Part shown: piece by piece, positions 570-48,145 of the stretch
How the letters are laid out: each line of letters begins with the position of its first letter
Position numbering within the stretch: the stretch's first letter is position 1
Assembly (NCBI GenBank): GCA_019058425.1
Contig: JAHPYZ010000024.1
Span: 1 to 56,290, forward strand
Direction: 5' to 3'
Length of the DNA: 56,290 bases
From: Promethearchaeota archaeon
GTDB taxonomy: Archaea > Asgardarchaeota > Lokiarchaeia > Sigyniarchaeales > SOKP01
Position numbers and translations under genes: made by a program
The notes under the pieces: generated by a model
The model's database searches: none
What the model was told of the DNA's origin: nothing
What the model saw: the letters and a program-made list of their open reading frames with translations, nothing else

Positions 570-1910
570 TTATAATATTTTTTTAACAATATCGGCCACG
601 CGGTAACCGCTTTCTACAGAGCCAGGAGTTCCTATAAGACCTGGAGCAATGCATGAATCTCCTACGTTAAATAAATTAGATATTGGTGTTTCTAAAGGCA
701 TACCATAACCAAGCCAAGTTCGACCTTCTGGCCATTCATTGATAATGCCGCATGCCCTTATTTTTAAAATTCGACCGTAATTTTCGAAATCTGGAAAGAA
801 TTCCCTAATATCACTTTTAACTTGTTGCATTTCATATTTTATATCCATAGGATGGAGGGTTGATTCGGACTTAGCTGAAGTGTAAATAAGATGCTGCCCT
901 GCGGGAACAAGTTCGGGACAGATATTACTAATAGGGATAACAGTTTTGATTCTTCGCGATCCCATTATTATTTCCAACCCATTATTTATTCCTTCCAAGC
1001 ACAGAGGCTTATCGCTTGCGACTAGAACCAGCAAACATGGGCTTGGTCGGAGTTTTATACGCATCTTTTCAAGATATCCATTATCAAAATTTTCTTTTCC
1101 TGCCAGATTTACCGTTGATTTAGCCCCTATATTACTAATAACCATCTGACATTTTATTTCAATTTGCTTTCCTTCCTTTTCAACAATTACACTTGTTGCT
1201 TTTCCCTCTTTGATATTTATTTTCCTTGCAGGGGAATTAATCCAAACAGCGCCAGTTTTTTCAACTACTTTAGCAAGTTCTTCTACTATGCTGAGGTTTC
1301 CGTCAGGTGATATATAAAATTTAGTCATTTCTTGGAAAAGGAAAAATTTTGAAACAGGTAGCTCCCAAGAATGAGCCATCATCAATCCTGTACAGAGAGT
1401 ATCAAAAGCATCATGCACTTTTTCATTCTCCGTATATTGGAGAAGCCAATCTCGTACAGTTATAGTTTCTTCTTGATTTATTCCCCGCATTTTTTTATAA
1501 TAACCACGCATTATCTTACGTAATTCAACAGGTTTTACTGGACGTTTCTTCTTTTCAGCATCTTTTCTTTCAAGTTTATCTATTATATCAAGCACTTTTG
1601 GAACTCCTATTTCAGCCGGGATTTCATATCTCTCACCGTCAATTCTATAATAAACTTGTGTTATTGGTCTTAAATTATCAGCCCCGATTCCCATATCCTC
1701 AAGTAAGTTTACCACCCATCCATCAGGTATGAGAATCGCACCAGTGGGTAATTTAAAACCTTCATACTCAAAAGTTGAAAATCTTCCTCCTATACGGTTT
1801 CTACTCTCCACTACAACAATTTTAAATCCCATACGGGAGAGGAGACTTGCTGCTGTTAATCCACCCAAACCTGAACCAATAATCACTATATCATAATCAT
1901 AATCCATCAT
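570..1910 (-). CDS. FAD-dependent oxidoreductase, phytoene desaturase/amine oxidase-like
   Basis: About 446 residues. The N-terminus carries a Rossmann dinucleotide fold with 'IVIIGSGLGGLTAASLL', followed by the 'VVESRNRIGGRF' FAD-binding stretch seen in CrtI-type desaturases and related flavin oxidoreductases. The C-terminus has the second FAD contact 'LFNVGDSCIAPGLIGTPGSVESGYRVAD'. The frame can be extended to a TTG at 1937, but the ATG at 1910 is preferred because a GGAGGT ribosome-binding site lies about 10 bp before it, inside the extension. No lipid-cyclase or desaturase partners are nearby; it follows mvhD in the Hdr operon by about 48 bp. Substrate unknown; a geranylgeranyl or other isoprenoid lipid is possible but unproven. 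Confidence 0.8.
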   Translation of the reverse strand: MMDYDYDIVIIGSGLGGLTAASLLSRMGFKIVVVESRNRIGGRFSTFEYEGFKLPTGAILIPDGWVVNLLEDMGIGADNLRPITQVYYRIDGERYEIPAEIGVPKVLDIIDKLERKDAEKKKRPVKPVELRKIMRGYYKKMRGINQEETITVRDWLLQYTENEKVHDAFDTLCTGLMMAHSWELPVSKFFLFQEMTKFYISPDGNLSIVEELAKVVEKTGAVWINSPARKINIKEGKATSVIVEKEGKQIEIKCQMVISNIGAKSTVNLAGKENFDNGYLEKMRIKLRPSPCLLVLVASDKPLCLEGINNGLEIIMGSRRIKTVIPISNICPELVPAGQHLIYTSAKSESTLHPMDIKYEMQQVKSDIREFFPDFENYGRILKIRACGIINEWPEGRTWLGYGMPLETPISNLFNVGDSCIAPGLIGTPGSVESGYRVADIVKKIL

Positions 1911-1957
1911 GTTATCCAGAACCTCCAGCATATCCAATTAGATTAATTTCAATTGGA

Positions 1958-2386
1958 TTACCATTGTAATGGCCCCAATTTTTTAATTTCGTTCGTAAAT
2001 TCAGTGATAACTTCAGCGAATCGTTTACCTTCAGATGCACTTACCCATTCAAGTCTAAATCTTTTTTTAAGATTGAACATTTTTAACACATCTCGAAACC
2101 GTTCGAATCTATCTCTAGCAAACTCATTTCCTTTTAAGTAATGACAATCGCCAATATGGCATCCTGTCACAATTACTCCATCAATGCCATCTTTAAAAGC
2201 TTCCAAAATGAAAGCAGGATCTACTCTACCCGAACACATTACTCGTACAATTCTAATAGTTGAGGGATATTGAAATCGCGAGACCCCCGCTAGATCTGCC
2301 CCAGCATAACTGCACCAATTGCAGCAAAAACACAATATATTGGGGTGAAAATCCTTTTTGTTTACTTTCTTTTTTGATTTAGACAT
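1958..2386 (-). CDS. mvhD: MvhD-type iron-sulfur subunit (cysteine form)
   Basis: A 142-residue protein of the MvhD/VhuD family, the [2Fe-2S] protein that passes electrons between a hydrogenase or dehydrogenase and HdrA. Visible family marks are 'CCNWCSYAGADLAGVSR' (about residues 21-37), 'VMCSGRVDPAFILEAF' and 'TGCHIGDCHYLKGN'. All expected metal-ligand positions are cysteine here, unlike the paralogue at 8346-8807 where two are TGA codons. It lies 18 bp downstream of the double HdrA, so the two products probably form a complex. The lysine-rich first 12 residues are extra relative to the paralogue. Confidence 0.92.
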   Translation of the reverse strand: MSKSKKKVNKKDFHPNILCFCCNWCSYAGADLAGVSRFQYPSTIRIVRVMCSGRVDPAFILEAFKDGIDGVIVTGCHIGDCHYLKGNEFARDRFERFRDVLKMFNLKKRFRLEWVSASEGKRFAEVITEFTNEIKKLGPLQW

Positions 2387-2404
2387 ATAGTAATACCTTT
2401 TAAT

Positions 2405-5400
2405 TTAGGTTTGGACTAAAAGTGCGGAAATCATAGCATGTATTTGCTCAAATCCAAAATGTTTAATAACTATTGTTGAATTAGGACACTGTGCACCACA
2501 TGTACCACATCCTTTACAGAGTGCCGGATTTACATGAGATTTCTTTATAGTCATAGTGATATCTTCGAAAGTTCTTTCTTTCTCAATTAATTCTATAGCA
2601 TTAAATTGACAGACTTCCATACAACTTCCACATCCAATGCAATTTTCTTCTATTACAACAGCTACAAGTCCAGATGTTACGAGTTTTTCAGCACTTAAAA
2701 TTTTAACCGCTTGAGCAGCAGCTCCATTAGATTGTGCTATTGATTCTCGAAGATCTTTAGGTGAATGTGCATTTCCACATAAATATATGCCATCAGTAGC
2801 AAAATCTATTGGCCTTAACTTAACATGAGCTTCTAAAAAGAATTTGTCTTCATTAAGTGGAACTTTTAACATTTTAGCAAGTTCCTCATTTTCTTTTACA
2901 GGTGCTATGAGCCCCGTACTTAATACAACTAGATCAGGATTAATTTCAAGTTTCCCTAAATCTGGATTATTTGTTATAATTGTTATCTTTTTATTTTTAA
3001 TTTTTAATTCTGGGGGTTTAGATTCATCGAATCTAAGAAATATTATCTTTTTATCTCGTGCTAGGTTATAGTATTTTTCTTTAAAACCATATGTTCGAAT
3101 ATCACGATATAGGATGATTATTTCTATTTCAGGGTTTACTTCTTTTGCTTTTAAGGCATTTTTTATTGCTTCTGAGCAGCAAATTCTACTGCAATAAGGA
3201 TGATCTTCATTTCTCGATCCTACACATTGTATCATAATTATTGATTTTAATCCTCTTATCTTGTCAGTAGTAAAAAGAACTTTTTCAAATTCAGTTTGCG
3301 ATATAATTCTTTGATCTTTTCTATAACTATATTCATCTGGTTTATATTCTTTTGCACCAGTGGCTACAATGATTATTCCATGATCTAAATCAATGCTTTT
3401 ATTATTAATTCCATAGCTTATATTTGTAGAAAAATTCCCTATATATCCTGATATTGAATTGATTTGGGCATTTTTAAATACATGGATTAGTTGATTATTT
3501 TCAACTTTATTAATTAAGTTTACAAGAAATTCCTGAACATTATCGTTTTCAAGGGTTTGATAAATATTTCGAGCAAAACCTCCTAATGAGTCTTCTTTTT
3601 CAATTAAAAAGACTTCATATCCTTGAGAAGCTAAATTTAACGCTGCTGACATTCCAGATACTCCACCGCCTATAATTAAACCTTTATCTATAACAGATAT
3701 CTCTTGTTCTTGCAATGGGATCAATTGACTAGCCTTTGCTACGGACATGCGCAGTAAATCCTTAGCTTTTACTGTTGCTTTTTCAGGTTCATGCATATGA
3801 ACCCAGGAACACTGATCTCGAATATTAACCATTTCAAAAAGATATTTATTTAAACCGACCTCCCTAATTGTTGCTTGAAATAACGGTTCATGCGTTCTTG
3901 GAGTACAGGATGCTACGATAACCCTATTAAGTTGATTTTTTTCGATTTTTTCTTTAATATTAGTTTGGGTATCTGCCGAACATGTATATAAATTATGTTC
4001 TGCATAAACAACATTGGGTAATGTCTTAACGTATTCTACGACACCAGGAACATCAACAACCCCACCAATATTTATACCGCAATGACAAATAAATACACCG
4101 ATTCGGGGTGGTTGATCACTTACATCTAGTTCTTCCGGGAGTTCCTTCTTAGAGACTAGACTATTTCTTGCTTCTGATAGAAGAACATTTACCCGTCCAG
4201 CAGCAGCACTAGCTTCAATAACTGTTTCTGGAATATCCTTAGGTGTTGCAAAAGAACCACAAACATAAATCCCCTGCCTCGAAGTTTCTACTGGGTTAAA
4301 AGTTCCAGTTTTACAAAAGCCATATTCATTTAACTGAATATTTAGTTTTTTTGCTAATTCATTTGCTTGTCGGTTAGGTTGCATTCCAACAGAAAGGACA
4401 ACTAGGTTAAATATTTCTTCTACAATTTTCCCATTTCCATTTTCATAATAAACCCTTAAATCTTTAGAATCTGGAATTTCTTTAATAGAAGATATTCTGC
4501 GTCTAATATATCTTACTCCATATTCATCTTTCGCTCGTTCAATATATTTATCAAAATCTTTACCATATGCTCTTATATCCATTGTAAAAATAGTTGGTTC
4601 TATGATATTCATATGTTCCTTTGCGATAACAGCTTCTTTTGTAGTATACATACAACATACAGAAGAGCAGTAATCAATTCTATGCTTTCTATCCCTTGAA
4701 CCTATACAATGTAAAAAAGCGATTTTTTTAGGGATAATACCATCAGAGGGACGAATTATTAAACCTGAATGTGGTCCACTAGCACTGAGTATACGTTCAA
4801 ATTCAATGCTAGTAATCACATTTAAATGCTTACCGTAACCCAATTCCGTTAAAGGAGTAGGATCGTATTCATCAAATCCAATTGCTAATATTACAGCGCC
4901 TACATTAAGGTTAATTACTTTATCGTGAAGTTCATAGTCTATAGCTTTTGCTTTACATATTCCTTTACAAATACCACAACCTATACATTCTTCTTTATTA
5001 ATAGAGAAAACTAATGGAACCGCTTGAGGAAATTTTACAGAAATTGCTGCATTATTAGAAAGCCTTTCATTAAAAAAATCAATAGCCTCTATTGGACATT
5101 GTTGAGCACATAAACCGCATCCTGTACATTTACTCTGATCCAGAAGAAGTGTTGTTTGAATTAAATCAACTTTAAAATTACCAGGAATTCCTTCAATTTT
5201 TTCTACTGAAGAATTAATTAAAATATCTATATTTTCATGTCGACCAGTTTGTACTAACTTTGGAGCAAGTATACATATTGCACAGTCATTAGTGGGAAAA
5301 GTTTTATCAAGCTGAGACATAACTCCTCCAATACTAGTTGTAGATTCTGCTAGATATACTTTATAACCTGAATCTGCTAAATCTATCGATGTTTGAATGC

Positions 5401-5446
5401 CCGCAATTCCACCACCAATAACTAGCACGGCTCCTACTTTTTCCAT
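2405..5446 (-). CDS. hdrA: Double-length HdrA-like electron-bifurcating flavoprotein (cysteine form)
   Basis: 1013 residues, well above the roughly 650 of a usual HdrA. In order: an FAD Rossmann domain ('VLVIGGGIAGIQTSIDLA', start of protein) with 'TNDCAICILAPK'; two [4Fe-4S] ferredoxin motifs (about 108-175); the HdrA N-terminal cluster domain with 'CHCGIN', 'CSADTQ' and 'SCTPRTHE' (about 450-540); a second FAD domain ('LIIGGGVSGMSAALNLA', about 590); and two C-terminal ferredoxin motifs (CxxCxxCxxxC, about 930 and 975). This amounts to an HdrA fused behind a second HdrA-like flavin module. Its ATG overlaps the stop of the HdrB/C fusion by one base (TAATG), so the two are translationally coupled. 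It serves here as the cysteine reference for the selenocysteine reading of the first HdrA. Confidence 0.92.
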   Translation of the reverse strand: MEKVGAVLVIGGGIAGIQTSIDLADSGYKVYLAESTTSIGGVMSQLDKTFPTNDCAICILAPKLVQTGRHENIDILINSSVEKIEGIPGNFKVDLIQTTLLLDQSKCTGCGLCAQQCPIEAIDFFNERLSNNAAISVKFPQAVPLVFSINKEECIGCGICKGICKAKAIDYELHDKVINLNVGAVILAIGFDEYDPTPLTELGYGKHLNVITSIEFERILSASGPHSGLIIRPSDGIIPKKIAFLHCIGSRDRKHRIDYCSSVCCMYTTKEAVIAKEHMNIIEPTIFTMDIRAYGKDFDKYIERAKDEYGVRYIRRRISSIKEIPDSKDLRVYYENGNGKIVEEIFNLVVLSVGMQPNRQANELAKKLNIQLNEYGFCKTGTFNPVETSRQGIYVCGSFATPKDIPETVIEASAAAGRVNVLLSEARNSLVSKKELPEELDVSDQPPRIGVFICHCGINIGGVVDVPGVVEYVKTLPNVVYAEHNLYTCSADTQTNIKEKIEKNQLNRVIVASCTPRTHEPLFQATIREVGLNKYLFEMVNIRDQCSWVHMHEPEKATVKAKDLLRMSVAKASQLIPLQEQEISVIDKGLIIGGGVSGMSAALNLASQGYEVFLIEKEDSLGGFARNIYQTLENDNVQEFLVNLINKVENNQLIHVFKNAQINSISGYIGNFSTNISYGINNKSIDLDHGIIIVATGAKEYKPDEYSYRKDQRIISQTEFEKVLFTTDKIRGLKSIIMIQCVGSRNEDHPYCSRICCSEAIKNALKAKEVNPEIEIIILYRDIRTYGFKEKYYNLARDKKIIFLRFDESKPPELKIKNKKITIITNNPDLGKLEINPDLVVLSTGLIAPVKENEELAKMLKVPLNEDKFFLEAHVKLRPIDFATDGIYLCGNAHSPKDLRESIAQSNGAAAQAVKILSAEKLVTSGLVAVVIEENCIGCGSCMEVCQFNAIELIEKERTFEDITMTIKKSHVNPALCKGCGTCGAQCPNSTIVIKHFGFEQIHAMISALLVQT

Positions 5447-6723
5447 TACTTCCCCTCAATACTCTGATTAGGTTCTATTAACTTAATCATATCTACTAAA
5501 AATTCTGAAAAATCTATAATTTCTATAGAAGAAAAATCATCATAATCTTTCTTTAAACAAATCAAATGCATTCGACATTTTGGACAAGCTGTAATCATTT
5601 TAGTTCCAACAGCTTTCGCTTCTAAAAGTCGTTTATATCTCAAAGCTTTAGACCGTTCATTACAATTCGTCCAAGAATTTACTCCACAACAATAAGAATT
5701 TTCTTTATTATGCTCCATTTCTTTAAAATCATAGCTGATAAACTTCAAATATTTGAAGATTTCTCGGACATTCTCAACTATTTTATTATCCTTTGGTAAA
5801 AACCTACTTAATCTACATGGATCATGATAAGTAAAAGGGATAACTTCATTAGATTTATTAGGCCTTTTAAATTGAATTTTTCCCTGCTTCCATTTATCAT
5901 AGATATATTCAATTATATGTTTGACTTCAAACCTTTCATTAAAATCTTCAAATAGTTTTAAATAATCAATTTTAAAGGTTCTATAACATTCAGCACAAGC
6001 TGTAACTATTGTTGTAGCTCCCGTTTTTTCAAATCTTTTTACATTTTTTTTTGCTAATTCAATAAAGCTTTCGAATTTTGCTTGGCCCCAATATAAATCG
6101 TGTCCACAACATATCTCATCTTTTAGAACAGCTACCGGATCTTTTTCTAATTGACAAAGAATCTTAAGTGTGCTTTCTGCTATAGATAATGAGTCTTCAA
6201 ATTCATAATTAAAAAAAGGTAAACATCCCACATAATATAAAATATTTCCCTTATCTGATGTTTTACAACCTTTTGGAATCCAATCTAAAGGCCTCTCAAT
6301 TTCCATATTATCTTGACTCATCATTTCTGACATTAAAGGATAAATACCTTTATGAGCAATAGACCGACCAGGATTTTGAATATCTTTCATCTGCATTTTA
6401 TATCTAGCAATTCTGACGATATCAGCAAAATTGATATCTTTAGGACAATGTTGCAGACAACTATTACACATTAAACAGTCCCATAATACCCCACTATTGA
6501 TTATCTCATCTTCAAAACCTTCTAATATTGTTTGAATAATTCTACTAGGAGTAAATTTTTGAACTTTACTGATTTGACATACACCTGAGCAACGGGCGCA
6601 TTGATAACATTTCTTTAATAAATTAGTTAAATCTGGATCGAATATCTTTTTCAAATATTCATAGTTGTCATCTGAAACGGATTTTAACTTTTTTAATTTT
6701 TCAATTTCAGTTATTGTTGTCAC
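5446..6723 (-). CDS. HdrC-HdrB fusion (HdrD-like) heterodisulfide reductase subunit
   Basis: 425 residues. The N-terminal third is HdrC/GlpC-like with two [4Fe-4S] motifs, 'CYQCARCSGVCQ' (about 39-50) and 'CLMCNSCLQHCP' (about 84-95). The rest is HdrB-like with two cysteine-rich CCG domains: 'EICCGHDLYWGQ...ACAECYRTF' and 'YHDPCRLSRF...YCCGVNSWTN...ACPKCRMHL'. CCG domains hold the non-cubane clusters that cleave disulfides in methanogen Hdr; in non-methanogens related subunits act on other or unknown acceptors. The start is GTG at 6723 with a GGAG just before it, overlapping the FrhB-like gene by 17 bp. The stop overlaps the HdrA start. Whether the substrate is a CoM/CoB-like heterodisulfide is unknown. 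Confidence 0.88.
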   Translation of the reverse strand: MTTITEIEKLKKLKSVSDDNYEYLKKIFDPDLTNLLKKCYQCARCSGVCQISKVQKFTPSRIIQTILEGFEDEIINSGVLWDCLMCNSCLQHCPKDINFADIVRIARYKMQMKDIQNPGRSIAHKGIYPLMSEMMSQDNMEIERPLDWIPKGCKTSDKGNILYYVGCLPFFNYEFEDSLSIAESTLKILCQLEKDPVAVLKDEICCGHDLYWGQAKFESFIELAKKNVKRFEKTGATTIVTACAECYRTFKIDYLKLFEDFNERFEVKHIIEYIYDKWKQGKIQFKRPNKSNEVIPFTYHDPCRLSRFLPKDNKIVENVREIFKYLKFISYDFKEMEHNKENSYCCGVNSWTNCNERSKALRYKRLLEAKAVGTKMITACPKCRMHLICLKKDYDDFSSIEIIDFSEFLVDMIKLIEPNQSIEGK

Positions 6724-8227
6724 TCCTTTCTTTTTCTTTCTTTAATTCAATTGATTTACAATTTTTTCTTTTAATTCCAGCAATCCGTTCTAGTAAAGGT
6801 TGCCCCGGTTTAACATCCTTTAAATTTTTGGATTCTATTAATCCTGCTTTACTAGCACCCTTAAAAAGTTCTTCTCCTTTTTTATTTCGAGTGATAACAG
6901 AAGACCATCCACTTCCAGATCCAATTGATCCAACTGAGATATCTGCATAATCTGCTGTTAAATCTTCACAAAAGTGACAATTATGACGGGCATAAGATTT
7001 AACATCTTTAAGTGGAACGTTTAAATCTTCTCCTTTATCCAAATAAATAATAAATTTACCACTACTAATATCCATCTTTGTTACTTTATTAAAATCTTGT
7101 TCAAATTGCTCTTTAATTAATCCAAGGACTCCTTCATAAGGAAAAGATTCCATACAAAAAAGCCCTATTTTATATTTTATATTCTTGAAAAATGGTACAC
7201 CACTTGAAAAAAGATTACCTTTTTCAATCGCATTCATCATGCAGGGAGTCCCTACAACAGCTATATTATTATACTCCTTGGCTTTATCTATAATCGCTAA
7301 AGTAGATGCATTTGCATATTTAGTGCCTCCTGTCTTATATAAATCTTTTAAGTCATCTACAATAACCGGTTCAGGTTTCCATTTCTCTTCTGAATGTTGT
7401 ACTGCTACAATTGCATCAACCAGTTTATCCTTAAGTAAGTATTCAAGTAAAGAAGTAACTATCCCTCCATCTTGTCGTACTTCTTTAATATCATCCTTAG
7501 TGGTACTGGCAGAATAAGTGTTAATATAACCATTAATTTTTTCTGAAAAATTTAAAGATTTATCAAGTTTATTTATACTTTTACCCACCTGCTCAATTGA
7601 AAATGATCTCGGGCAAACTGAATAACATAAACCACATTTAATACATATTTCATCATTTATCTCCAAAGTATCTGCGGTCACTGAAATGGCATTTACAGGA
7701 CAAATAGATGAACACCATCCACATTGACAACATACTTCAGAATCGAACACAATAGAAACTGGTTCAAAAAAATGTTCAATGAAATCGTCGGGAATATCTT
7801 TTACTTGATATCTGTAGAAATATTCTTTTTCCTCGACTTCTTTTTCTTCTCCCTTAATTTTTTTAATAACAGTTTTTGTTTTTATTTCAATGTGTTCTTC
7901 AATATATCCCTGTTCTTTAAGATAAATTATATCACGAATTACATTTTCTGCAGGAAAATCCTTTAGAGTTTCTGCAATTTCCTCTAAAAACAACGGTTCC
8001 TTACCTATTAAGGAATCTAAGACTAATTTACGCTCTGTTTCAGCATCAATCATCGCGTCTAAAAGTTCATAAAATTCTTCTTCAGAAAATTTTCCTGTTT
8101 CCAAAATTTCATCCTTCGCTTCAAAGAAAGCTCGAATTTGAAAATTTTCAACTGCTTCATACGTAGCATCCATTAAATTTTTTGGAGTTATCCCATTGAA
8201 ATTTGAATTTTTTGAAATTTGAACCAT
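6707..8227 (-). CDS. FrhB/FdhB-like F420-reducing subunit with N-terminal helical extension
   Basis: 506 residues. Residues 1 to about 150 are a charged helical/winged-helix-like region not found in short FrhB proteins. Two ferredoxin motifs follow ('CCQCGWCSSICP', 'CIKCGLCYSVCP', about 166-212). Then comes the FrhB core with 'RQDGGIVTSLLEYLL', 'VGTPCMMNAIEKG', 'KIGLFCMESF' and 'CHFCEDLTADYADISVGSIGSG', the family marks for flavin and F420 exchange. It starts 119 bp after the selenocysteine mvhD and overlaps the HdrB/C fusion. The placement suggests F420H2 (or a ferredoxin) is one electron carrier of the Hdr complex. A second FrhB-like protein is encoded alone at 20086. Confidence 0.88.
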   Translation of the reverse strand: MVQISKNSNFNGITPKNLMDATYEAVENFQIRAFFEAKDEILETGKFSEEEFYELLDAMIDAETERKLVLDSLIGKEPLFLEEIAETLKDFPAENVIRDIIYLKEQGYIEEHIEIKTKTVIKKIKGEEKEVEEKEYFYRYQVKDIPDDFIEHFFEPVSIVFDSEVCCQCGWCSSICPVNAISVTADTLEINDEICIKCGLCYSVCPRSFSIEQVGKSINKLDKSLNFSEKINGYINTYSASTTKDDIKEVRQDGGIVTSLLEYLLKDKLVDAIVAVQHSEEKWKPEPVIVDDLKDLYKTGGTKYANASTLAIIDKAKEYNNIAVVGTPCMMNAIEKGNLFSSGVPFFKNIKYKIGLFCMESFPYEGVLGLIKEQFEQDFNKVTKMDISSGKFIIYLDKGEDLNVPLKDVKSYARHNCHFCEDLTADYADISVGSIGSGSGWSSVITRNKKGEELFKGASKAGLIESKNLKDVKPGQPLLERIAGIKRKNCKSIELKKEKERSDNNN

Positions 8228-8282
8228 AATTCCATCCTTCTGGATTAGATTTTATTATTAAATCTTAATTTTTAATTGAATA

Positions 8283-8345
8283 CTAATTAAAAACCCCTTC
8301 CCGTGCAAGGTTAGTCTTCTTATAACTAGAATTTGTTTATAAGAA
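8283..8345 (-). promoter_or_regulatory. Candidate SECIS-bearing 3' region of the selenoprotein mRNA
   Basis: Directly after the mvhD stop the transcript can fold two overlapping ways. One is a perfect 9-bp hairpin, TTCTTATAA / TTATAAGAA, with an 11-nt loop (8317-8345). The other pairs CTAGTTA with TAATTAG (8323-8329 with 8283-8289), has an internal loop with GAAGA on its 5' side, and closes on AACC/GGTT with a G-rich apex. Archaeal SECIS elements usually sit in the 3' untranslated region and have a purine-rich internal loop under a short GC helix, so the second fold is the better candidate. I could not compute energies or match a covariance model. It would serve both mvhD and, across a 6-bp gap, hdrA. 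Confidence 0.4.
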
Positions 8346-8807
8346 TCATTCCGCAGGGGTAGTTATAACATGTTTACTTTCAGTTTCCGTTTCTTCATTT
8401 ATTAAGTTAAGTGGACTTGGTCCTACTTCCTTTAGTTTTTCATAAGCGTCCTTAACAGATTCGACAAATTTCCCAGCATCTCCTCCACTTAGCCAATACA
8501 TATTTATTCTTTGATTTCCGAAACCTCTGGACGCTAAGATTCTGTTTGCTAATTCAACGTGTCTTTCAGCTGTGAAATTACCCTTTTTAAATTGACATTC
8601 ATTGGGTCGTCACCCCACAATCATAACTCCATCAGCTCCAGAGCGAATACTATAGAGGATATGTTTAACATCAACTCTTCCAGTACATTTTACTTTGATT
8701 ATTTTTACTGCCGGTGTATATTTCAATCGTGAAACTCCCGCTAAATCAGCAGCACTATATCCTCATTTTAAACAAGCAAAAACGATTAGACTATAAGTAT
8801 TATCCAT
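8346..8807 (-). CDS. mvhD: MvhD with two in-frame TGA codons read as selenocysteine
   Basis: From the ATG at 8807 the frame reads 153 residues if TGA at 8763-8765 (residue 15) and 8610-8612 (residue 66) are decoded. Both sites align with cysteine in the paralogue at 1958-2386: 'CLKUGYSAADLAGVSR' against 'CNWCSYAGADLAGVSR', and 'VGURPNEC' against 'TGCHIGDC'. The flanking sequence stays MvhD-like throughout, with no frame change, so a pseudogene or sequencing error is unlikely. Selenocysteine in VhuD is known from Methanococcales and selenoproteins have been reported in Lokiarchaeota. A third TGA (8346-8348) is taken as the stop; a TAA follows two codons later. The gene begins 6 bp after hdrA. 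Confidence 0.88.
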
Positions 8808-8813
8808 GTGTGT

Positions 8814-10766
8814 TTAACCACCTCCTAAAAGACCATCTATTTCAGCAAATAATTGATGATCTCGATAATATCGGATATCTATTGCGTGAGTAGGACAACA
8901 TGTGGCACAAATACCGCATCCATCACAATTTATCTCATCAATAAATGCACCAATATCCTTCTCAATTCTAATGGCATTTTTAGGGCATTCCTTTTCGCAA
9001 CGTCTACATGAAATGCAAAATTCACTATCCACTTCAGCAGTAATTAGTTCTATATCGATTTGTCCTGGTGCTGTTAACTCAGCTACTTTACTAGCCGCTG
9101 CTCTAGCTTGAGAAACTGAATATGAAATATTTTTCGGTCCTTGAGCAAATCCCGCTATAAAAACTCCTTTTGACTTTGTCTCTTGCGGCATTAGTCCGAA
9201 ATGTGATTCAGTAAGGAATCCATATGTATTAGTATCAAGATTTAAAACCTTTACAATCTGCTGAGTACCTTTTGAAGGGAGTGTTGCTGTGGATAATACA
9301 ACTAAATCAGCATCAATTTTTACAATTTTATCTGTTAGGGTTGAATATAGTCGAACTTTTAGATTTTTAGTTTCTGGATCTTCAGAGATTTCACCAACTT
9401 TTCCACGGATCATTCTAATTCCAACATCTTTAGCTCGCTCATAGTACTCTTCAAATCCTTTTTCAGGAGTTCTTATATCAATATAACAGATTGTTATATT
9501 AGCATCAGGAAATTCTTCGAGTAACAACCTTCCATTTTTCAAAGCGAGCATGCAACACACACCACTACAATAAGTTCGCTCAGTTTCCCGGCTTCCAACG
9601 CATTGTATAAATACAATTTCTTTGGGTTGCTTATCATCTGAAAGACGGTGCACATGTCCTTCAAGTGGTCCATTTGGGGCTAGTATACGCTCTAATTGAA
9701 CTTGAGTTACAACATTTTCGAATTCTCCGTATCCATATTCACCAAAAGGTTCATATATATCCCAACCAGTTGCGATAATGATTGTACCGACTTCAATACT
9801 AACATCTATTGGCACTTGGCTAAAATCGATGGCATCTAATTCACAAGCATCAACGCAAGAAAAACATTCAATGCAGGCATCTCTGTCAATATCAAATAAA
9901 AATGGTACTGCTTGACCAAATGGAATATCAATAGCTTTTCTTACACCTAAATGTTCATCGAAGTAATTACTTGTATAAACAGGACAAACCTCACTACAGG
10001 CACCACATCCATTGCATTCATCTGTGGTGTAGCGTGGTTTCTTTTCAATAGTTACTTTATAATTCCCGACATATCCTTCTATTTTTTTAACTTCACTATA
10101 AGTTAATAACTCAATATTTTCATTCCTATTGACTTCTAACATTTTAGGACCACAGATTCATATCGCACAGTCATCTGTCGGAAATGTTCTGTCCAATTGA
10201 GACATTCTTCCGCCTATTGTAGTTTTTTGATCAACTAAATAAACTTTAATACCTTGATTCGCAAGATCCAACGCCGCATTCATCCCAGCAATCCCACCTC
10301 CGATTACTAATGTAGCTTTTGTAACAGGAACAGTTTTAATAGGAACTGGTTCCAATCGTTTAGCCCTTTCAATTCCGCTTTTGACTAGGATTTTTGCTTT
10401 TTCAGTTGCTTGTTCCTTACTATCTGTACACCAAGAGCAATGTTCACGCACATTTACCATTTGAAAGTAGTAAGGGTTTAAATCCGTTTTTGCTATAGTA
10501 CCTCTATAAATTACTTCATGTGTACGAGGAGTTCAAGCAGACGCTACGATTCTGTTTAAATCCTTCTCTTTGATATCTTCAATGATCTCATTTTGAGCAT
10601 TATCAGTTCAAAGAAATGCGTTCTTTTTTGAGATTAAAATCTCATCTCCAAATTCAGCTTTTACGAAATCAGTTAATTCATCACAATCTACTTTAGATCT
10701 TATATTTACGCCTCATTGACATGCATAGTATCCAATTTTTTTTGGAAAATTTTCATTTTCACTCAT
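8814..10766 (-). CDS. hdrA: HdrA with four in-frame TGA codons read as selenocysteine
   Basis: A single 650-residue reading, normal for HdrA, from ATG 10766. TGA codons lie at 10713-10715 (residue 18), 10608-10610 (53), 10533-10535 (78) and 10158-10160 (203). Each matches a cysteine in the double HdrA: 'CQUGVN' with 'CHCGIN', 'FLUTDN' with 'YTCSAD', 'SAUTPRTHE' with 'ASCTPRTHE', and 'DDCAIUICGPK' with 'NDCAICILAPK'. The first three belong to the N-terminal cluster domain, the fourth to the site after the FAD motif where Methanococcales HdrA also has selenocysteine. FAD fold 'LVIGGGIAGMNAALDLA' lies near 155, with ferredoxin motifs near 245 and 285 and two more at the C-terminus. Selenocysteine at all four sites is an inference from alignment. 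Confidence 0.9.
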
Positions 10767-46093: not shown

Positions 46094-46591
46094 ATGACAA
46101 TTGAAGAAAATTTTGTATTTCCCGTATATATTAATGTAAATGTCTTGAATAGGATAAGGCTATTATGTAAGAATTTTCCAAACGAAATTTTTGGATATCT
46201 AATTGGACATATATTGAAATGGAATGATATATTCTATGTTAAAATCGAGGAACTTCTTTTTCTTTTAGGAGCAATCCATAGTGATAAGTTTTCTACATCT
46301 CAAATAGAAGGTGCAGCAGGAAAATATGATAAAAAGTTCCAACGACTAAAAAGAAAAAGAAAAGATGATAGTTTAAGAATAGTAGGTTGGTGGCACTCAC
46401 ATCCAGGTTTTGGTTGTTTTTTATCGACAACAGATGTAAAAACTCAAGAATACTTTTTTCCTGAATCATACCAAGTAGCATTAGTTGTCGATCCAGTTAA
46501 AGATGATTCCCAATTTTATACTCTAGATAAAAATTCAGAAAAGGGTTATAAAGAAATAAGTTTTGCAGTTGTAAACTTGAATTCGAATTAA
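46094..46591 (+). CDS. JAMM/MPN+ metalloprotease, Rpn11-like deubiquitinase
   Basis: 165 residues. The zinc motif is complete: H101, H103, S111 and D114 in 'WWHSHPGFGCFLSTTD' (HxHx7Sx2D), with the upstream glutamate as E31 in 'NEIFGYLIGH'. A small Rpn11/CSN5-type core without C-terminal extension. It would trim the Ub-like precursor or remove it from targets. It is between the longin-GTPase pair (5 bp upstream) and the E1 (19 bp downstream), the grouping seen in other archaeal ubiquitin-type clusters. Confidence 0.93.
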   Translation: MTIEENFVFPVYINVNVLNRIRLLCKNFPNEIFGYLIGHILKWNDIFYVKIEELLFLLGAIHSDKFSTSQIEGAAGKYDKKFQRLKRKRKDDSLRIVGWWHSHPGFGCFLSTTDVKTQEYFFPESYQVALVVDPVKDDSQFYTLDKNSEKGYKEISFAVVNLNSN

Positions 46592-46610
46592 CCTTGTAAA
46601 TATTTTTTAT

Positions 46611-47501
46611 ATGCCAAGTAAAGAAAAAAATGTGGATTATGAAGTCTATGGCGTTGATTCTATAGACTCGGATAAATTTGATCGCCAAAAACGTATTAGT
46701 GGTTGGGATCAATACAAGATTTCAAATGCAACAGTTATGGTTATCGGTGTTGGTGCCACTGGAAATGAGGTTGTAAAAAACTTGGTGTTAACTGGAATTG
46801 GTAAAATAATAATTATAGATTATGATTTCATAAATATGTCAAACTTGAATAGATGTGTACTTTTTAGTAGACAAAGTGCTCAGAATAAAGAGTATAAAGT
46901 AGATGTAGTAAAAGATGCATGTGAAGTGTTAAATCCAGATACGGAAATTATAGCTGTTAAAAAGGATTTAAATGATATTGATAAAGACTTATATAAAAAG
47001 TCTGATGTTATATGTTCATGCCTTGATAACGTTGAGGCGAGACTACAAGCAAATAATTATGCGTACTTCTATGGTGTTCCTTTTGTAGATTCTGGAATTG
47101 AAGAATTCTTTGGTAGTATTCAATCCGTTTATTCTAAAGAGAAAGATGCTGCGTGTTTACAATGTAGTATATCTAATTCGGATCTCGATCTAATGTGGAA
47201 AAAATTTTCATGCACGGGTCAAGAAATTCAAAGTGAAAAAGGTGAAACTGTTGCTAAGATAGCTACAATAATAACAACAACTTCAATTATAGGAGGCCTT
47301 CAATCACAACAAGTACTAAAATTTATCTTAGGAATTGATTATTATAAAGAACATGGTGAATGGAATTCTTCAATAGGTAAACCTTTGATTGGTAAACAAC
47401 TCAATTATAATGGATTATTAAATAAATTTAGAGTTGTTGAGAAATTAAAGAATCCTGAATGTTGGACATGTTCTTATGAGAGAAAAGATAATATAAATTA
47501 G
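46611..47501 (+). CDS. E1-like ubiquitin-activating enzyme
   Basis: 296 residues, ThiF/E1 adenylation fold. ATP site 'VIGVGATGNE' (G46-G51); 'IIDYDFINMSNLNR' follows with the nucleotide-binding aspartate and the SNLNR motif. 'CSCLDNVEARLQAN' is the next conserved block. Zinc pairs are C182/C185 ('CLQC') and C284/C287 ('CWTC'). The likely catalytic cysteine is C201 in 'FSCTGQ'. It would adenylate the Ub-like C-terminus and carry it as a thioester. There is no separate catalytic-cysteine domain or ubiquitin-fold domain, so it is a compact, single-chain E1. Confidence 0.92.
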   Translation: MPSKEKNVDYEVYGVDSIDSDKFDRQKRISGWDQYKISNATVMVIGVGATGNEVVKNLVLTGIGKIIIIDYDFINMSNLNRCVLFSRQSAQNKEYKVDVVKDACEVLNPDTEIIAVKKDLNDIDKDLYKKSDVICSCLDNVEARLQANNYAYFYGVPFVDSGIEEFFGSIQSVYSKEKDAACLQCSISNSDLDLMWKKFSCTGQEIQSEKGETVAKIATIITTTSIIGGLQSQQVLKFILGIDYYKEHGEWNSSIGKPLIGKQLNYNGLLNKFRVVEKLKNPECWTCSYERKDNIN

Positions 47502-47584
47502 AAATTCCAACTTTAAAAATCACAAAAAATAATAAATAAAAAATCAATAAAATGTATAAAAATTAAAATTGAGGGGTAAAAGAA

Positions 47585-48145
47585 TTGCCAGAACTACCTT
47601 ATGAAATTTGGAAAGATAGAATTGAAAATGAACTCATAAATATAAAAAAATTAAATGTCCTAGAAGAGAATACAATTGTTAAAGGAGAAACTAGCGTTGA
47701 ATTTACAATAAACATCAAGGCATTAGGCCTTCTTCAAAATAAAGGGGAACTTACCCCATTGAGATCTCATAGGATTTTCCTAAAAATAAATAGATCTTTT
47801 CCCTATCCTGGTGGAATTGACTTTTCTTGGATATCGAATATCTTTCATCCTAATATTCATCCTGTCCAAAATCCACTTGGGGGTTCTGGTACAGGTTATA
47901 TTTGTCTCAATGTATTGAAAAAATGGTCTCGATTATCTGATTTAGAGACTACCACTAAAGCCCTTAAAAGTTTAGTAGAAAATCCCAATCCAGACGACCC
48001 TCTTAATTATCCAACATGCCTAGAGGCAGCAGAATTATTCAAAAACAGATCTATGGCTGATATCAAGGAAGAACTTGATATTACCGAAGAGGAAATAGAG
48101 GAGACAGAGGATGAAGAAGAGGATGTTATAATTTTAGATGATTAA
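47585..48145 (+). CDS. E2-like ubiquitin-conjugating enzyme
   Basis: 186 residues, UBC fold. The core shows 'FPYPGG', 'IFHPNIHPV' (HPN motif) and 'GYICLNVLKKWSRLSDL' with the catalytic cysteine C107. The acidic tail ('EEIEETEDEEEDVIILDD') is unusual for a prokaryotic E2 and echoes Cdc34-type acidic tails. The start is TTG at 47585 with a GAGGGG ribosome-binding site about 8 bp upstream; no ATG fits. It follows the E1 by 83 bp. The Ub-like gene faces it, with 27 bp between the stops. Confidence 0.92.
   Translation: MPELPYEIWKDRIENELINIKKLNVLEENTIVKGETSVEFTINIKALGLLQNKGELTPLRSHRIFLKINRSFPYPGGIDFSWISNIFHPNIHPVQNPLGGSGTGYICLNVLKKWSRLSDLETTTKALKSLVENPNPDDPLNYPTCLEAAELFKNRSMADIKEELDITEEEIEETEDEEEDVIILDD

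Follow-up and report, generated by a model that had tools for sequence, protein, structure and literature searches.

The hdrA gene described here encodes the flavin-containing HdrA of a soluble Hdr-type electron-bifurcating or -confurcating complex from a Lokiarchaeia archaeon, and there is strong support for the prediction that its four in-frame UGA codons are decoded as selenocysteine (Sec). As an overall explanation we consider it fairly probable that these UGAs are read via a SECIS element at the end of the adjacent mvhD gene, and that the four Sec residues serve as ligands of one inter-subunit [4Fe-4S] cluster. The window, i.e. the whole analysed stretch of 56,290 nucleotides, corresponds to contig C17 in a MAG assembly of 4.64 Mb with 143 contigs, 97.6% completeness and 7.4% estimated contamination. 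Table 1 lists the features of the locus.

Table 1. Features at the hdrA locus, with positions counted in the window.
Feature	Positions	Strand	Remarks
hdrA, 650 aa predicted selenoprotein, Sec at 18, 53, 78 and 203	8814..10766	minus	ATG start, TAA stop
TGA codon, Sec18 = Cys13 of 5odc (hand count on alignment)	10713..10715	minus	TGA in 42/42 named orthologues
TGA codon, Sec53 = Cys46 of 5odc (hand count)	10608..10610	minus	TGA in 30/42, TGC/TGT in 12/42
TGA codon, Sec78 = Cys71 of 5odc (hand count)	10533..10535	minus	TGA in 42/42
TGA codon, Sec203 = Cys197 of 5odc (hand count), reported partner-subunit ligand	10158..10160	minus	TGA in 42/42
mvhD/frhD (FlpD family), 153 aa, Sec15 (8763-8765), Sec66 (8610-8612)	8346..8807	minus	PF02662, 144 bits (156-aa read-through)
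SECIS: AUGA, 9-bp stem, apical loop, GA	8315..8349	minus	motif scan and covariation
FrhB/FpoF-like F420-oxidoreductase with ferredoxin domain, 506 aa, TGA stop	6707..8227	minus	
HdrC/HdrB-like (TfrB-like) Fe-S protein with CCG domains	5446..6723	minus	
Fused double HdrA, all cysteine, 1013 aa	2405..5446	minus	
Second mvhD, all cysteine	1958..2386	minus	

The hdrA product and its gene neighbourhood

The protein has the HdrA domain set, consisting of the N-terminal Fe-S domain, the FAD/TrxR domain with an inserted ferredoxin and the C-terminal ferredoxin, and it gives full-length sequence matches to methanogen HdrA. When an AlphaFold model with Cys substituted for Sec (pLDDT 84.5) was used as Foldseek query, full-length solved HdrA chains were matched at 39-47% identity, with 8rvu, 8rvy and 5odc as the closest structures. 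The NCBIfam HdrA models that fit the product best all stay below their curated cut-offs (NF040770 with 771 of 1100 bits, NF041778 with 619 of 1400, NF041891 with 610 of 1300); these models comprise 762-777 positions, and their ends, from about position 640 onwards, match the MvhD proteins of the window, for which there is a separate gene here.

The first-pass annotation had noticed four in-frame TGA codons in the gene, and there are exactly four, which are the sole internal stops of any kind in the frame and correspond to residues 18, 53, 78 and 203. In the alignment, the solved HdrA proteins 5odc, 8rvu, 8rvv and 7bkb have Cys opposite all four sites, and 9sfi_A has Cys opposite 18, 53 and 78 and a nonstandard residue X opposite Sec203 (U203).

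Downstream of hdrA follow mvhD/frhD, the FrhB/FpoF-like gene, the HdrC/HdrB-like gene, the fused double HdrA gene and the second mvhD, and from this gene content we infer that HdrA and MvhD would join the FrhB-like and HdrC/B-like proteins in a bifurcating or confurcating complex linked to F420. It had been stated in the annotation that an HdrA of the same operon carries Cys at all the TGA sites. This holds for columns 18, 53 and 78 in the second half of what turned out to be a fused double HdrA, but this half has Phe at 203, and the Cys at 203 is found in the first half, which is without the N-terminal domain. Elsewhere in the window, at 46094-48145, three adjacent frames that by eye resemble a protease of the JAB type and proteins of the E1-like and E2-like kinds might represent an Asgard ubiquitin-type cluster.

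Predicted selenocysteine decoding of the UGA codons

The reading of the TGAs as Sec codons, already advanced in the first-pass annotation, is well supported by the combination of Sec machinery in the genome, a SECIS element, UGA at the same columns in relatives, and purifying selection. TGA codons were counted in 42 named Lokiarchaeota/Lokiarchaeia orthologues on 42 contigs, which remained of 47 loci when one frame-shifted locus (L052), two fragments (L075, L077) and two unrelated Blautia ferredoxin matches (L078, L079) had been dropped. All 42 have TGA at columns 18, 78 and 203, and 30 have it at column 53, where the other 12 have TGC or TGT. The TGAs are not confined to one assembly, and one of the 42 contigs (CP070831.1, L039) is a complete chromosome in a single contig. 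At the other 22 invariant Cys columns, TGA accounts for 3 of 908 codons (two truncated loci are without the last eight columns). Among 14 further sequences, which are paralogous or more distant (L018-L032 minus L019), TGA occurs 11, 2, 4 and 14 times at columns 18, 53, 78 and 203, and in 1 of 308 codons at the other 22 columns. A 54-row HdrA alignment has 26 invariant Cys columns if Sec is scored as Cys, and the chance that four random codons all land on these columns is about 2e-6. Nine further HdrA stretches have cysteine-column TGAs at 18, 53, 78 and 203 alone, plus a TGA at column 114 (L131) and one at column 99 (the frame-shifted L135). The TGA at 114, which L131 has in common with L026, is in frame at a non-Cys column and may be a sequence error or something else. 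In L052, L016 and L135, a frame shift separates the N-terminal domain, which contains three of the TGAs, from the remainder of hdrA.

Codons 1-203, which include all four TGAs, are under purifying selection, with dN/dS values of 0.045-0.074 against seven relatives. The values are 0.051-0.082 for codons 204-650 (six comparisons that are not saturated) and higher, 0.125-0.182, in the short stretch of codons 19-52 (three comparisons that are not saturated).

As to the machinery, tRNA-Sec, SepSecS, EFSec, SelD and a PSTK-like protein were found in the genome, the tRNA with an incomplete 5' end and the PSTK-like protein with 149 bits, below the curated cut-off of 290.5 bits. SepSecS scores above its cut-off (488 bits), as do two neighbouring SelD genes that contain one TGA each. 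These SelD genes (L081, L082) are about 2 kb apart and lie beside a frame that by eye resembles a 2-hydroxyacyl-CoA dehydratase subunit. TIGR00475 has no match above cut-off in this genome; its best match there, yet under the cut-off, is a frame of about 472-474 aa whose best solved match is the archaeal SelB 4ac9 from M. maripaludis (290 bits over residues 9-466), and PF21208 (EFSec) has no match anywhere, control genomes included. The tRNA-Sec gene is next to SepSecS, where contig C138 ends, and has the anticodon loop CTTCAAA (TCA anticodon). It was found with a model built on the tRNA-Sec of 11 relatives, whose genes ARAGORN calls tRNA-Sec with anticodon tca in 11 of 11 cases tested; the model matches in 24 of 25 genomes, several of which had supplied the model's own sequences. 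The Rfam model RF01852 gives sub-threshold matches alone in this genome, called tRNA-Arg and tRNA-Gly by ARAGORN, and the search is uninformative because all 14 control genomes matched as well. At positions 2873-2941 of L080, the tRNA-Sec is placed immediately upstream of SepSecS and is cut by the contig end. In eight genomes of the same genus, the tRNA-Sec model, although it has 89 positions, matches stretches of 121-153 bases, which suggests an insertion or intron in their tRNA-Sec.

Since the gap between hdrA and mvhD is only 6 bases, the two genes, with six Sec codons in all, are probably served by one SECIS. Both mvhD columns, 15 and 66, are Sec in all 40 loci with enough flanking sequence, window included, and a SECIS candidate lies 432-484 bases past the hdrA stop in all 40 loci with enough downstream sequence, again including the window. 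The scan pattern, AUGA-stem-loop-GA/AA, is permissive, and the weight rests on the alignment; five named loci were too short for the scan, and the best candidate of L075 is in a shifted register. In the alignment of 38 distinct sequences, from which L075 and one duplicate were omitted, 95.6% of the cells of the 9-bp stem pair, compared with 40-57% in slid controls, and two-sided changes are seen in 7 of the 9 pairs; 0-1 of 500 shuffles came up to these values. The element thus consists of an AUGA...GA core with a covarying stem. For the window sequence by itself, single-sequence folding gives a modest gain over shuffles (z -1.59), of which 13 in 200 do equally well. The presumed mvhD stop TGA at 8346-8348 is at the same time the UGA of the SECIS core, and an in-frame TAA follows two codons later, inside the stem; in 30 of the 40 loci the core UGA is likewise in frame with mvhD as its presumed stop, mostly with an in-frame TAA two codons further. 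A C-terminal Sec at this UGA of MvhD may be conceivable. Three more Sec hdrA-mvhD pairs in the same genome also have SECIS candidates, and their sequences differ.

Probable ligands of the N-terminal cluster

According to passages of PMC9012536, the N-terminal Fe-S cluster in the HdrABC-MvhADG structure has a ligand, Cys197, that is supplied by the other HdrA copy, and the electron path on the ferredoxin side passes through this cluster; the organism is named M. wolfeii in these passages, whereas 5odc is listed as M. thermolithotrophicus. As U203 aligns with Cys197 and thus with a ligand of the partner's N-terminal cluster, all four Sec probably belong to one cluster. This agrees with the annotation's view that the TGA sites include ligands of the N-terminal cluster, and it makes that view more precise, as one ligand would come from the dimer partner. 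HdrA is described as holding six [4Fe-4S] clusters in the part of PMC5861303 consulted. In our assignment by spacing, the two ferredoxin domains and the C389/C400/C404/C405 site account for 20 of the 26 invariant Cys, and residues 16, 18, 53, 78, 200 and 203 are left for the sixth, N-terminal cluster. No Sec occurs at 16 or 200 in 56 sequences (42 orthologues and 14 paralogous or distant ones). In the AlphaFold model, 18, 53 and 78 are each located in a loop that connects a strand (11-16, 43-49, 72-77) to the helix after it (19-25, 55-68, 80-92). This leftover set of cysteines, the lack of Sec at 16 and 200 and the equivalent loops together argue for 18, 53 and 78, plus 203 of the partner, as the ligands: for U203 this rests on a published reading of the structure and the alignment, and U18, U53 and U78 are most likely the other three.

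The restriction of Sec to one cluster is strong, yet it is not absolute, because rare TGAs occur at cluster cysteines of the ferredoxin domains (column 304 in L047 and L054, 617 in L069, 301 in L018). Within the tree of 66 HdrA sequences, the states at 18/53/78/203 are UUUU in 30, UCUU in 14, UCCU in 13, CUUU in 3, CCCC in 3, CCCU in 2 and UUCU in 1, and the fewest changes required are 3, 8, 4 and 1 at columns 18, 53, 78 and 203, respectively. The HdrAs of the genome itself have the states UUUU (window), UCCU (twice), UUCU and CCCC, apart from the all-Cys fusion. Taken together, these state counts and paralogue states point to repeated exchange of Sec and Cys at the four columns, with 203 as the steadiest; by the counts on this unrooted tree, Sec is most constant at 203, followed by 18 and then by 78 and 53. 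The notion of an unusually selenium-rich subunit, as put forward in the annotation, is justified in comparison with methanococcal HdrA, for which one Sec in a CxxU motif is listed, but four Sec are ordinary within Lokiarchaeia, where 30 of 66 HdrAs have them all.

In the mechanism that we propose, the AUGA...GA SECIS at the end of mvhD would direct Sec insertion at the four hdrA UGAs. In one HdrA copy, the N-terminal domain would contribute Sec18, Sec53 and Sec78 as ligands of one [4Fe-4S] cluster, and Sec203 from the thioredoxin-reductase-like domain of the dimer partner would be the fourth ligand. This would result in an all-selenolate cluster where the two HdrA copies meet, in the branch that has been proposed to run to ferredoxin. 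Electrons exchanged with ferredoxin in either direction would pass through this Sec-bound cluster, and the selenolate ligands may shift or tune the potential and the electron-transfer rate of that branch. At low selenium, the Cys paralogues in the genome could take over, by analogy to Methanococcus maripaludis. We give slightly better than even chances to the more general claim that Lokiarchaeia make a natural [4Fe-4S] cluster with all-Sec protein ligands, of which one HdrA supplies three and the partner HdrA the fourth, that Sec constancy decreases from 203 to 18 to 78 and 53 on the unrooted tree, and that Sec and Cys have replaced each other repeatedly at these four columns.

Which other explanations could account for the four UGAs? 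A serious but clearly less probable one is that the four Sec are made without all residing on one cluster, either because C16 replaces one of the residues 18, 53 and 78, or because some selenols are redox-active or protective nearby, as CxU and CxxU pairs with C16 and C200. These two cysteines are the invariant neighbours of U18 and U203, and the HdrA motif listed in the consulted part of PMC9312934 is indeed CxxU. C16, the last residue of strand 1 in the model, is as invariant as 18, 53 and 78 and is Cys in 20 of 20 divergent N-terminal domains, so that by conservation alone it may equally be a ligand; the columns 16/18/53/78 read CCCC in 19 of these 20 domains and CCTC in L176, with a Cys one place later, and neither these domains nor the conservation over the whole protein discriminates C16 from the other three. 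Against this explanation, the 56 sequences have Sec in varying combinations at 18, 53, 78 and 203 but in no case at 16 or 200, and the model places the three N-terminal sites in equivalent loops.

We regard it as improbable that the UGA series is a selenium-sensing brake, in which translation would stop at codon 18 at low selenium, Cys paralogues would replace the protein, and Sec would be of little chemical benefit. The genome would be equipped for this, with 13 HdrA-type N-terminal domains of which 4 have TGA and 9 have none, and M. maripaludis turns to Cys isoforms without selenium (passages of PMC11097638). However, a brake would need one UGA, and three are kept in 42 of 42 orthologues; the presence of several UGAs at one set of sites, the constancy of three of them and the repeated Sec/Cys exchange favour a chemical role. 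Least credible of all, and close to negligible, is an artefact, whether the gene is a pseudogene, the sequence is in error or the TGA codon has been reassigned throughout the genome. The sequence does stem from a MAG with some estimated contamination, but identical TGAs recur in the 42 orthologues and the dN/dS over codons 1-203 is low, a combination by which pseudogene, sequencing error and code reassignment were ruled out. Unlike a reassigned codon, TGA in HdrA is almost wholly confined to four of the 26 Cys columns, and it terminates the FrhB-like gene; 40 other ORFs of the window have no internal TGA, but they were preselected as TGA-free.

If the four Sec do share one cluster, this would be a naturally occurring iron-sulfur cluster with selenolate ligands throughout, and the relatives with 0, 1, 2, 3 or 4 Sec would be a natural series for the effect of selenium on potential, stability and bifurcation. 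It would also bear on the question why Asgard archaea invest so much selenium in HdrA and its neighbour MvhD.

Comparison with known systems

Selenoprotein HdrA with a common hdrA-frhD SECIS was reportedly described for Asgard archaea (Lokiarchaeia) by Mariotti in 2016, and a Lokiarchaeota abstract of the same year is said to mention multiple Sec in three of five selenoprotein families there. The occurrence of several Sec per protein in Lokiarchaeota is probably already known.

Asgard selenoprotein HdrA and FrhD with a common eSECIS-like element are covered in passages of Huang 2024 (PMC11227280) and PMC9723677, and the overlap of a UGA stop with the AUGA core is reported for Lokiarchaeia in the former. 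The Lokiarchaeia HdrA of PMC11227280 thus resembles that of the window in family, gene pair, eSECIS-like element and stop overlap; the number of Sec per HdrA and a tie to cluster ligands are absent from the passages compared. A passage on multiple Sec in PMC13188914 is about FrhD/VhuD. Our literature search, which covered few subscription papers, returned no statement, in the text portions it covered, that several Sec of HdrA share one Fe-S cluster. As Sec-containing HdrA in Asgard archaea is already published, the gene of the window is not a new kind of gene, and the single-cluster reading is the part that we did not find in print.

The HdrABC-MvhAGD complex of Methanothermococcus thermolithotrophicus (5odc) contains a full-length homologue with the same domains and aligned cluster cysteines, and the four sites that are Sec in the window are all Cys in this HdrA. 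The loci differ in that the seven genes scanned here (570-10766) include one FrhB-like gene and no hydrogenase subunit. The HdrA of methanogens can also contain Sec; in M. maripaludis, by the available parts of the sources, HdrAU is a selenoprotein and a Cys isoform is used without selenium (PMC11097638). The one-Sec CxxU motif listed for methanococcal HdrA (PMC9312934) fits column 203, as the first-pass annotation had stated for the methanococcal Sec. In comparison with this CxxU-type HdrA, as far as it is described there, the HdrA of the window has three extra Sec, and these are in the N-terminal domain.
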